Part shown: one piece after another, positions 10,553 through 39,813 of the stretch
How the letters are laid out: each line of letters opens with the position of its first letter
Numbering within the stretch: the first letter of the stretch is position 1
Assembly: GCA_040367435.1 (NCBI GenBank)
Contig: BAABWY010000003.1
Coordinates: 186,001 to 250,000 of the forward strand
Origin: Hyphomicrobiales bacterium 4NK60-0047b
Lineage (GTDB): Bacteria > Pseudomonadota > Alphaproteobacteria > Rhizobiales > HXMU1428-3
DNA: 64,000 bases
Direction: 5' to 3'
Position numbers and translations under genes: made by a program
The notes under the pieces: model-generated
Databases searched by the model: none
Told to the model about the DNA's origin: nothing
What the model saw: the letters and a program-made list of their open reading frames with translations, nothing else

Positions 10553-10656
10553 TAGCGCATGTTGCTTTTTTGGGGGTTCACTAACATGCTCTAAGTTTTT
10601 GTTTAAGCGAGTTGTTTATCGCAAAACCGGAACCCACTTTTACGCAACACGCTCTA
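10553..10656 (+). repeat. TA-flanked palindromic element (about 104 bp), copy 1
   Basis: It begins TAGCGCATGTT and ends CACGCTCTA. The first 41 bp form a hairpin (left arm AGCGCATGTT, right arm AACATGCTCT). The second part carries AAAACCGGAACCCACTTTT, a motif familiar from intergenic palindromes of Rhizobiales. Copy 2 at 11133 has exactly the same length. It ends directly before the AAGGAC sequence upstream of rsfS. Confidence 0.8.
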
Positions 10657-11132: not shown

Positions 11133-11236
11133 TAGAGCATAACTTTTTCACACTGTATCAGATGAATGCTCTAGCTTTTTGTTTTGGCGCACATTTTTTT
11201 TCGATCCTCGTTTTAATCCGGTCGGATTGTGCTCTA
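11133..11236 (+). repeat. TA-flanked palindromic element (104 bp), copy 2
   Basis: From TAGAGCATAAC to TTGTGCTCTA, the same 104 bp as copy 1. The first 41 bp end in GAATGCTCTA and form the terminal hairpin. This is followed by GCTTTTTGTTTTGGCG, comparable to AGTTTTTGTTTAAGCG in copy 1, and an inner palindrome around TTTTAATCCGGTCGGATTG. It may also serve as a terminator-like hairpin after rsfS. Confidence 0.8.
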
Positions 11237-35892: not shown

Positions 35893-36693
35893 TCACAGGA
35901 TTTTTGAAAATTGCGTCGCGGCTGATTTAATCAGCTCTGCATCATTGCTGCCGATCAATAGATATTCATACTCACCCTTTTTCCAATGGGCAGCTTTTAA
36001 GCCTTGCTGTACGTCATTGATAACTTTTGTCTGACCATTGTTGCTTGCTTTAATAATACAAAGGGCAACTGGTTTACCCTCATCAGATAAAAATGCCAGC
36101 TGGATTAAAGGTTGCCCCTTAAAGCCTAGTATTTGAGCTCTTTTGTAATTCAGGCCTTTAACATTGGTCAGTTGTGTCAGTTCTATTTTTTTGCCAAGAA
36201 CGCCTGTTACATGCTGTAATTGTTTTGAAGAAGTTTCTTCATTTTGAATAATTGTAGCAAGCGTTTCCTTGCTATATAGCGCTTGATAGGCTGCTACGTA
36301 ATTGTGCCAGTTCTGCAAGTTGTTTACAGATGAAAAAGATTTTGCGCACCAGCCAATTGCCACAGCAAGCAAAGCGACTGCCGCTATTTTTTGCCAACCT
36401 TCAAAGAGGCTTGAACTATTGCTATTTGCTGATTTCAAAACCTGGGGCTTTTGTTGTGCCACAGCTGTTTCACTCAGGAAGTCAGGCAAAGGTTTATGCT
36501 TTTTTGCATTTTCTGCAATGGTTTCCATTGAACGAGAAAGCGCTTCTTTATCAAATTTTAGATTATTCAAGCGGTTTGCCAAACTCTCATCAGTGACGAG
36601 GGCGGCTTTAATAGCATCCATTGGAGCAAACTCGGCTTCTCCATCCAAATAAGCGACAAGCTCTTCATCACTAAATTTGTCTATCTGACTCAT
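35893..36693 (-). CDS. Anti-sigma factor for the ECF sigma factor encoded upstream
   Basis: 266 residues. The N-terminal DEELVAYLDGEAEFAPMDAIKAALV (about 9-33) is the zinc-less anti-sigma type seen in many alphaproteobacterial ECF pairs. One membrane helix (KIAAVALLAVAIGWCAKSF, about 103-121) separates it from a periplasmic domain. It starts 13 bases after the sigma gene ends, on the same strand. Overall layout, length and the C-terminal motif (WKKGEYEYLLIGSNDAELI) parallel the second anti-sigma at 39810 (YWLDHDVSYVLVGNITKEAL), suggesting they are distant paralogues. Confidence 0.85.
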   Translation of the reverse strand: MSQIDKFSDEELVAYLDGEAEFAPMDAIKAALVTDESLANRLNNLKFDKEALSRSMETIAENAKKHKPLPDFLSETAVAQQKPQVLKSANSNSSSLFEGWQKIAAVALLAVAIGWCAKSFSSVNNLQNWHNYVAAYQALYSKETLATIIQNEETSSKQLQHVTGVLGKKIELTQLTNVKGLNYKRAQILGFKGQPLIQLAFLSDEGKPVALCIIKASNNGQTKVINDVQQGLKAAHWKKGEYEYLLIGSNDAELIKSAATQFSKIL

Positions 36694-36706: not shown

Positions 36707-37243
36707 TCATCTTTTTGGCTCACTCACCTTTTGATTTTCATCATCATTAAATTGGGTGGCTATTGCCTTACGGGCAACTGCCAAACGGCTCATTACTGTT
36801 CCAACTGGTATTTCAAGGGTTTCTGCTGCTTCTTTATAGCTAAATCCGTCCACATAGACCAAAATGACCGTTAGTTTTTGCGCTTCTGGCAATGCCTCTA
36901 TAGCTAATAACACGTCTTTGCCCAAAATATTCATTTCTGGGTCTAAATTATTATCAGCAAGATCATATTCTTCAATTGGGGAGCATCCCTGGCCAGTTCT
37001 GGTTGATTGTGCCCTTATTTCATTGAGCCATAGCCTTTGTGCTATGCGAAAGACCCAGCCATTAAAATTAGTGTCTGCTTTATAGAGCTCAGCTTTTTCT
37101 AAAGCCCGAAGGCAAGCAGCTTGCGCCAGATCATCTGCTGCATGGGATGATCTAGTTAGAAACAAACAATAACGCCAGAGCTTGGGAAACAGTTGCCTCA
37201 GCTCTGCTCTTACCACTTCATAAGAATTTCTGTTCTTGCTCAA
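36707..37243 (-). CDS. ECF RNA polymerase sigma factor
   Basis: 178 residues. Region 2: LRQLFPKLWRYCLFLTRSSHAADDLAQAACLRALEKAELY and GWVFRIAQRLWLNEIRA. Region 4: LPEAQKLTVILVYVDGFSYKEAAETLEIPVGTVMSRLAVARKAI. It lacks other domains. It pairs with the anti-sigma gene directly downstream and is divergent from the DUF4399 gene (start 37361), which is a plausible target. The signal sensed is unknown. Confidence 0.93.
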   Translation of the reverse strand: MSKNRNSYEVVRAELRQLFPKLWRYCLFLTRSSHAADDLAQAACLRALEKAELYKADTNFNGWVFRIAQRLWLNEIRAQSTRTGQGCSPIEEYDLADNNLDPEMNILGKDVLLAIEALPEAQKLTVILVYVDGFSYKEAAETLEIPVGTVMSRLAVARKAIATQFNDDENQKVSEPKR

Positions 37244-37360: not shown

Positions 37361-37926
37361 ATGAAAAAATCAATAGCTCTTAAAATGATTGTATTTCTTG
37401 GGCTTCTAACTATTGGCTTTTCTGGACTGACTAACACCTCTATGGCCGGTGAAACTCCCTCCAAGGCTGGTACCAAGCAATATTTTGTAAACCTCAAAGA
37501 TGGGGATGTTATTGCAAGTCCCTTTAAAGTTATTTTTGGATTAAGTGGAATGGGAGTGGCACCCGTTGGCGTGGCTAGAGCATTTTTTTAGATGCACTTA
37601 TTTGAATGCTCTAGTTTCTTGTATTAGCGTTCCTTTTTTCCTAAAATCGGTATCCACTTTAAGGCGGAAACTTTAAGGCGAACACCGGTCATCATCATTT
37701 GTTTATTGACCGTGTGGCGCTTGAAAAAGGTGAAGATGGTGTTGATGAATATCTGGACAATATTCCAGCAGACGAGCAACACATTCATTTTGGTGGCGGC
37801 CAGACAGAGACTATTTTAAAACTTTCTCCTGGCAAGCACACTTTGCAACTGGCCCTAGCTGATGAAAATCACATTCCTCATAATCCGCCTGTATCCTCAA
37901 AAGTGATTACGATTACTGTGAAGTAA
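37361..37926 (+). pseudogene. DUF4399 secreted protein gene interrupted by a small inserted element
   Basis: The start is ATG 37361 with GGAG nine bases before. The 5' part encodes a signal peptide (MKKSIALKMIVFLGLLTIGF ... SMAGETPS) and the domain start TKQYFVNLKDGDVIASPFKV, IFGLSGMGVAPVGVA. It then runs into foreign sequence and a TAG at 37589. The missing remainder resumes at about 37675 as KANTGHHHLFIDRVALEKGE, DEQHIHFGGGQTETILKLSP and HTLQLALADENHIPHNPPVS to a stop at 37926. Removing 98 bases with one TA restores a continuous protein of about 155 residues. The family has no assigned function; it is a periplasmic domain with conserved His residues. Confidence 0.9.
37576..37675 (+). mobile_element. 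TA-flanked palindromic element inserted in the DUF4399 gene
   Basis: 100 bp counted from TA to TA. Left part: TAGAGCATT...AATGCTCTA, a 38-bp hairpin. Right part: GTTTCTTGTATTAGCG, then AAATCGGTATCCACTTT and GGCGGAAACTTTA. These blocks match, in order, those of the intergenic elements at 10553 and 11133 (104 bp each). The host gene is continuous if the element and one copy of TA are removed, so a TA target duplication is likely, as with IS630/mariner-type non-autonomous elements. No transposase is encoded in it or elsewhere in the window. Confidence 0.85.
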
Positions 37927-39291: not shown

Positions 39292-39813
39292 ATGACACAG
39301 CTGCTTGATGAAATTGAAGCTTGCATACCAGCGTTAAGGCGATACGCACGCGCGCTGACGGGCAATGCTGACCTGGCTGATGATCTGGTTCAAGATTGTT
39401 TGGAACGTGCCATTCGCAAACGACATTTATGGTCTCCAACTGGCAACTTAAAAAGCTGGCTTTTCACAATGCTTATCAATATTTATCGTAATCAATTGCG
39501 TGCACTTAAAAATCGGCCGGCTTTAGCTTCAATAGATGAAATGTCAAATGAACCTTCTGTTGCAGCCTCTCAACCAGACCAGGTTGCCTTGGCAGAAACC
39601 AGGAGAGCACTTGGCACTTTGCCACTTGAGCAGCGAGAGGTTTTATTGCTCGTTACGATTGAAGGGATGCCCTATAAAGAAGCGGCGACGATACTTGGCA
39701 TTCCCATCGGCACGCTTATGTCTCGGTTAGGGCGTGGGCGAAAACGGTTACGACAACTGGTTGATTATGAGCCAAAAAAAACTGAGACAAGCAGCTTAAG
39801 GAGAGTTAAATGA
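39292..39813 (+). CDS. ECF RNA polymerase sigma factor (second pair)
   Basis: 173 residues. Region 2: CIPALRRYARALTGNADLADDLVQDCLERAI and WLFTMLINIYRNQLRA. Region 4: LPLEQREVLLLVTIEGMPYKEAATILGIPIGTLMSRLGRGRKRLR. Its stop overlaps the anti-sigma start as ATGA. It is only distantly similar to the sigma factor at 36707. Together with the P460 and Lipoprotein_15 genes it appears to be part of one envelope-stress or redox locus (inference from proximity). Confidence 0.94.
   Translation: MTQLLDEIEACIPALRRYARALTGNADLADDLVQDCLERAIRKRHLWSPTGNLKSWLFTMLINIYRNQLRALKNRPALASIDEMSNEPSVAASQPDQVALAETRRALGTLPLEQREVLLLVTIEGMPYKEAATILGIPIGTLMSRLGRGRKRLRQLVDYEPKKTETSSLRRVK

Follow-up and report, generated by a model that had tools for sequence, protein, structure and literature searches.

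The window analysed here, a 64,000-nucleotide stretch from the genome of Hyphomicrobiales bacterium 4NK60-0047b (G000), contains between positions 35893 and 40637 two ECF σ factor genes (36707-37243 on the minus strand and 39292-39813 on the plus strand), each followed by a gene without a Pfam match that may be an anti-σ gene. Between the two ECF σ genes lie genes for a DUF4399 protein, a cytochrome P460 and a Lipoprotein_15 protein. The DUF4399 gene is broken (Table 1). Its 5′ portion, MKKSIALKMIVFLGL...GLSGMGVAPVGVA, is read from an ATG at 37361 to ...GMGVAPVGVA and then meets a TAG codon (37589-37591) within an inserted sequence; after 98 bp, the frame picks up at KANTGHHHLFIDR and continues to ...ITITVK. 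When the flanks were joined in a script, with 98 bp taken out and a single TA left in place, an open frame of 155 aa was obtained (GVAPVGVA-KANTGHHH...), bearing out the split gene and its repair by excision that the first-pass annotation had described. The Pfam match to DUF4399 (PF14347) covers the second half only, ending at the last of the 91 profile positions, and the listed 3′ frame offers its first start codon only at 37699, a TTG, which corrects the earlier reading of this frame. A search of G000 with the 155-residue query returned the two halves as sole matches. With these 98 bp, the reading frame is shifted and ends after 76 codons; the sole DUF4399 copy found in G000 is thus a pseudogene, and we infer that the protein has been lost. 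The further suggestion that a likely member of an ECF σ regulon was thereby lost is not supported, its one basis being the adjacency of DUF4399 to an ECF σ gene.

Table 1. Features of the interrupted DUF4399 gene and related copies of the insert, in window coordinates
Feature	Position	Strand	Remarks
DUF4399 5′ fragment, 76 codons	37361..37591	+	Stop is the TAG within the insert
Two-hairpin palindromic insert, 100 bp with both TA (net 98 bp)	37576..37675	+	Model R1, 94.3 bits; the copy is itself in the model
Left TA of putative target duplication	37576..37577	+	C before it (YTAR)
Hairpin 1, TAGAGCATT ... AATGCTCTA	37576..37613	+	Folding; covariation over 71 copies
Hairpin 2, AGCGTTCC ..., right end degenerate	37625..37675	+	Alignment, folding, covariation
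Right TA of putative target duplication	37674..37675	+	A after it (YTAR)
DUF4399 3′ fragment	37676..37926	+	Pfam PF14347, profile positions 32-91
Related copy, 104 bp	10553..10656	+	Covariance-model score 98.9 bits
Related copy, 104 bp	11133..11236	+	68.1 bits; also present in G002

Intact orthologues in related genomes

The nearest relative, G002, carries an intact DUF4399 gene (94% aa identity over 155/155 residues), from which, by BLAST coordinates, 98 bp are missing at the position of the insert. Orthologues with the same spacer, or without the KANTG segment, had been named in advance as observations that would speak against an insertion; instead, the segment before GHHH is joined directly, with no spacer, in 7/7 other genus genomes searched and in 16/16 named loci fetched, at least three of which are apparently identical records to genus genomes. 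Because of these spacer-free orthologues, the insertion in DUF4399 appears to be derived, and is less likely to be older and lost again in G002. In a further genome of the genus, G004, the DUF4399 match (L011; G004:C51:9899-10357) shows two internal stops, by reading in the signal-peptide part, and this gene may be decaying independently.

Two explanations without any transposition were weighed against these comparisons. G000 and G002 share about 90% identity in the aligned blocks of the contigs compared (blocks range from 77 to 97%), and collinearity with G002 extends for more than 300 kb through the block that holds both flanks of the insert. It is true that the G000 assembly consists of 26 contigs and that repeats can break assemblies; however, a repeat misjoined into the gene by the assembler agrees poorly with this collinearity and with an addition of only 98 bp, and since the element’s best other match in G000 is 91% over 64 bp, the element is not a copied neighbor. 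We therefore regard an assembly artefact as very improbable. Hardly credible is the view that the palindrome was recruited as a spacer and that the two frames are real genes or parts of a programmed fusion. The gene halves are still near G002 in DNA (97.4% and 96.0% identity), indicating that decay is not far advanced, but the insert both stops and shifts the frame, the split falls inside the DUF4399 domain, the 3′ frame lacks a start upstream of its TTG, and the relatives examined read as one continuous segment over the junction.

Structure of the inserted element

Alignment, folding and covariation give the family to which the insert belongs a common layout, in which a first hairpin (TAGAGCAT...ATGCTCTA) and a linker resembling TTTCTTGTTTT are followed by a second hairpin, AGCGTTCC...CCCAAAA..TTTTGGG...GGAACGCTCTA. 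Changes on both sides were seen at 23 of the 24 base pairs over 71 copies, in an alignment that was fitted to the model and is biased towards it. The window copy is degenerate at its right end, with GGAA-ACTTTA where the family has GGAACGCTCTA and with ACTTTA as its last letters instead of GCTCTA, which amends the earlier description of this end. The minimum-energy fold of its hairpin 2 half pairs differently from the family consensus, and for the copy as a whole the fold is scarcely more stable than those of its shuffles (z = −0.97); six other copies gave z values from −1.5 to −3.8 against shuffles. An Rfam scan of the window returned zero families at the gathering score.

That the insert belongs to the same family as the elements at 10553 and 11133, as first proposed from their shared block order, agrees with the scores of all three under covariance model R1 (Table 1). 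This model was built partly from the three window copies themselves, and independent support therefore comes from the copies found genome-wide and from the empty sites described below. At the G002 site corresponding to the 10553 copy (196553), only a shortened remnant is seen, by reading.

Filled and empty sites in two genomes

To see whether the family is, or was, mobile, as the first-pass annotation held, we traced 25 other G000 copies into G002 by one search and fetched the regions; excluded from the 25 are L105, L106, L107, and L110, whose flanks were seen to be common with G002 copies. Ten of the sites are cleanly empty in G002, nine are shared (eight strong model matches and one weak), and six are uncalled (L108, L111, L113, L121, L125, and L127, the last two of which are possibly false matches). 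At 7/10 clean empty sites, the TA-element-TA of G000 corresponds to precisely one TA in G002; the other three read TG (L112), T then C (L118), and CTAG (L129). In the reciprocal direction, a G002 copy at G002:C1:118213-118345 faces a bare TA in G000. Target duplication, one of the hallmarks of miniature inverted-repeat elements (MITEs), is thus seen at seven of the ten empty sites and in one reciprocal case. A direct comparison of contig G000:C3 with G002:C1 covers six copies, two of them shared, one empty (the DUF4399 insert), one a remnant by reading, and two uncalled. From this filled/empty polymorphism it follows that the family either moved after the split of G000 and G002 or was lost very precisely; outgroups give the polarity at the DUF4399 site only, and elsewhere a gain is not distinguished from a precise loss. 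The proposed duplication of a TA on insertion accordingly holds well at the empty sites, but at the DUF4399 site it is consistent rather than clean, because the right-flank letters differ between the genomes (TAAGGCG in G000, TAGAGCG in G002).

A preferred YTAR target

We then looked at the flanking bases, which lie outside model R1 and had no part in building it. For this purpose, 67 of the 71 model matches were used (dropped were L114 3211 and 3294, L132 1602, and L125 1792), together with 17 of 18 matches from other families (L175 981 was dropped). TA stands at the left terminus of 61/67 and at the right terminus of 56/67 genus copies. Once copies with the same left flank are left out, TA stands at both ends in 47/61 genus copies, and among these 47, a C or T precedes in 44, an A or G follows in 42, and both hold in 40, giving a YTAR frequency of 40/47 compared with 29.8% of the TA dinucleotides in the same loci (p = 5e-15). 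The preference recurs in the copies from other families, with YTAR at 14/15 against a background of 16.1% (p = 1e-10). CTC precedes the left TA in 9/47 genus copies (1.3% expected), and GAG follows the right TA in only 1/47. Given its copy number, the single-TA empty sites and the YTAR preference, the behavior of the family is that of a miniature transposable element that duplicates a TA.

The G002 allele

The letters of the intact G002 gene invite a different order of events. G002 reads GGC-TA-GAGCGAAC at the junction, whereas this codon is AAA in the two next relatives and AAG in G000, and the TAGAGC of the G002 allele corresponds to the letters of the element’s left end. It is tempting to speculate that the insertion predates the G000/G002 split and that an imprecise deletion in G002 restored the frame, leaving a TAGAGC scar and turning a lysine into an arginine. 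In line with this, G002 reads GGCTAGAGCGAAC (R), whereas K is the residue in most of the other alphaproteobacterial orthologues shown (Q in L026); TAGAGC is found at 2/11 G002 empty sites compared with 117/13,172 YTAR sites in G002:C1 1-400000 (nominal p = 0.004, post hoc); and besides the remnant at the 196553 site, called by reading, G002 holds another shortened or weak family remnant, L141. On the other side, a single substitution from AAA to AGA accounts for the G002 letters, the length is unchanged relative to the outgroups, and no GAGC follows the TA at 6 of 7 other single-TA empty sites. The second TAGAGC case (the L115 versus L151 site) lies within a 12-bp palindrome in G002, GGCTCTAGAGCC, that may be ancestral. 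Counts of synonymous/nonsynonymous changes on the DUF4399 branches (G000, 4/5; G002, 3/3; unpolarised, 3/1) do not decide the matter. Overall, we consider this older insertion with later loss possible, but distinctly less probable than an insertion on the G000 branch. A putative template switch with ACTTTAAGGCG, 14 bp upstream, as the copied stretch would plausibly account for the degenerate right end of the window copy as well as for the AAG codon.

Copy number, host range and gene context

Model R1 finds at least 66 copies in G000 and at least 62 in G002 (150 candidates scored out of 1792 and out of 1757, respectively), and at least 3 to at least 70 in each of the remaining six genus genomes (E up to 0.1); these counts are lower bounds since 150 candidates were scored per genome. 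Under stricter filters, with about 32 candidates scored per genome, matches (E up to 0.001) occurred in 52/121 genomes sampled from the order, including G000 and three others of the genus, and in 7/115 sampled from the class, G000 included. Plasmid searches with copies from two other families matched 296 and 344 records, mostly rhizobial and mostly over partial length, from Rhizobium, Sinorhizobium, Bradyrhizobium, Mesorhizobium, Ochrobactrum, and others; the same plasmid search with a genus copy as query gave zero matches. Most copies are 100-104 bp long, short, non-coding and multicopy, as MITEs are, and most of the 67 copies end in TAGAGC...GCTCTA or near variants, the terminal inverted repeats typical of such elements.

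When the flanks were joined across each copy, at least 30 open codons on each side were found at 10/67 genus copies. Only the window copy exceeds 80 codons on the short side, the remaining nine having 31 to 56, and it is also the only genus copy for which the gene was checked by domain or orthologue. Among copies from other families, 8/17 reach 30 or more open codons to either side and three exceed 80 (L167, L172, and L175); these three could represent additional intragenic insertions or frames open by chance, long chance frames being expected there because the copies are G+C-richer.

Several individual copies deserve mention. One (L092:17864-17977; G000:C3:177864-177977) apparently sits at the TA of a stop codon, the relative’s frame ending in TAA by reading; since the element starts with TAG, insertion at a stop-codon TA preserves the stop. 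In genome G063, tandem partial units (query 32-106) adjoin full copies on contigs C149, C322, C213, and C41, which suggests that hairpin 2 was multiplied locally, and the repeat lies at or near the start or end of several G063 and G235 contigs. Within one two-hairpin copy, a YTAR site is occupied by a second miniature element, of 164 bp, at L202:983-1146 (G065:C75:61982-62145); it likewise ends in TAGAGC...GCTCTA, has longer terminal inverted repeats and occurs in about a dozen copies in G065 at 95% identity or more. The plasmid matches of this 164-bp query were discarded as a 24-base chance match (E about 2).

Relation to known palindromic repeats

Compared by description, the family resembles the CIR and Bru-RS repeats of Caulobacter and Brucella, the latter a genus of the same order as the source organism. 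According to the passages of these papers available to us, the CIR (CcrM-associated intergenic repeats; Chen and Shapiro 2003, as cited in PMC2229807 and PMC10969869) are alike in their length of about 110 bp, two hairpin arms with a linker, TA termini and many alphaproteobacterial copies (PMC2229807). They differ in that the available text of a 2024 MITE review calls CIR strictly intergenic and its table enters their target duplication as “?” (PMC10969869), whereas the window copy lies inside DUF4399 and TA duplication is seen at empty sites of the present family. The GANTC site that defines CIR is absent from the window copy, and any GANTC occurs in 9/67 genus copies (19.7 in shuffles) compared with 11/17 copies from other families (5.3 in shuffles), in 10 of these 11 at position 22-23 in the loop of hairpin 1; the genus copies often have GAATTC in this loop in place of GANTC. 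With GANTC in only 9 of 67 copies, the genus thus carries the family largely without the CcrM site.

Bru-RS1 and Bru-RS2 (Halling and Bricker 1994, as cited), of 103 and 106 bp (PMC10800456), are likewise described in the accessible passages as related 103-106 bp palindromes that are intergenic and multicopy (PMC10800456, PMC2266754, PMC2267715), and identity of the present family with Bru-RS appears likely from these descriptions. The Brucella insertion sequence IS711, which reportedly favors Bru-RS for insertion, duplicates a TA within YTAR (PMC2266754, as far as available), which is also the target measured in the present family, but is an 842-bp IS (PMC7589603, likewise). RUP of Streptococcus pneumoniae and Correia/NEMIS of Neisseria share with the family a length of about 107 bp, non-coding nature, terminal inverted repeats and a TA target, but live in other hosts and form their stem from the two ends, in contrast to the two arms here; the proposed driver of RUP is IS630-Spn1, while none was found for the present family (PMC2229807, passages available). 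RIME and the A/B/C palindromes of Rhizobium and Sinorhizobium (Osteras 1995, as cited in the accessible part of PMC2573895) are, by description, also intergenic rhizobial palindromes. A literature search, with subscription papers mostly outside its reach, returned no paper on empty sites or target of the family.

Mechanism and candidate driver

Taken together, we favor, with a probability of roughly 90%, the view that a non-autonomous alphaproteobacterial MITE, found mainly in one order, inserted at a YTAR TA in DUF4399, duplicated the TA and broke the gene. In this scheme, the element would have targeted the TA within a YTAR sequence (C-TA-A/G) of the gene and duplicated it, probably through a DDE-type transposase acting on the TAGAGC...GCTCTA termini, and the 98 bp would then have shifted the frame and stopped it after 76 codons, in this presumed order of events.

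As to the driver, the first-pass annotation had pointed to the IS630/mariner type, a proposal that found no support: domain searches for PF13358 (DDE_3, IS630/mariner-type) and for PF13340 (IS5-type OrfA) each gave 0/8 genus genomes. IS711 belongs to the IS5 family. The YTAR target recalls IS711 and points to a candidate IS711-like driver rather than an IS630/mariner one, and because neither PF13340 nor PF13358 was found in the eight genus genomes, the family’s driver may be gone. PF01609 was found in 2/8 genus genomes, with one match each in G001 and G002. The G002 gene has PF13751/PF01609 domains and an upstream frame with an in-frame TAG, by reading; its locus (L186) was rejected as a parent, there being no TAGAGC or GCTCTA there, and the G001 locus (L187) has TAGAGC/GCTCTA hexamers at three places. 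No autonomous copy was seen in the half-element loci read, three half elements of G063 lying at contig ends, and by eye no transposase-like neighbor was seen at L199 and L200. Seven stretches read for the 164-bp family of G065/G018 likewise showed, by eye, no longer relative carrying a transposase.

Movement by a single-strand mechanism (REP/RAYT, HUH) or by homologous exchange, instead of a DDE transposase, would suit a family that is rich in hairpins, includes single-hairpin copies (L006), and lives in a genus where the two TA-type transposase domains searched for both failed to appear. However, a TA at YTAR combined with inverted ends TAGAGC/GCTCTA suits DDE elements, and the second, 164-bp family of G065 unites the same six-letter ends with longer inverted repeats and a YTAR site inside a copy, and we judge this alternative unlikely.

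Implications

Reports of similar palindromes from Brucella, rhizobia and Caulobacter go back a long time, and the review passages available leave both the target duplication and the mobility mechanism of CIR open while placing them strictly between genes. The gene disruption with outgroups, the single-TA empty sites and the cross-family YTAR target described here show how such elements insert, and the question of the driving transposase thereby becomes directly testable. More speculatively, and with more doubt than confidence on our part, alphaproteobacterial palindromes of the CIR/Bru-RS type might all be one old, class-wide, TA-duplicating YTAR family, probably served by IS711-like transposases, that can enter genes and leave them again with the frame repaired and a TAGAGC scar. 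If this were true, the intact DUF4399 gene of G002 would be a healed gene.
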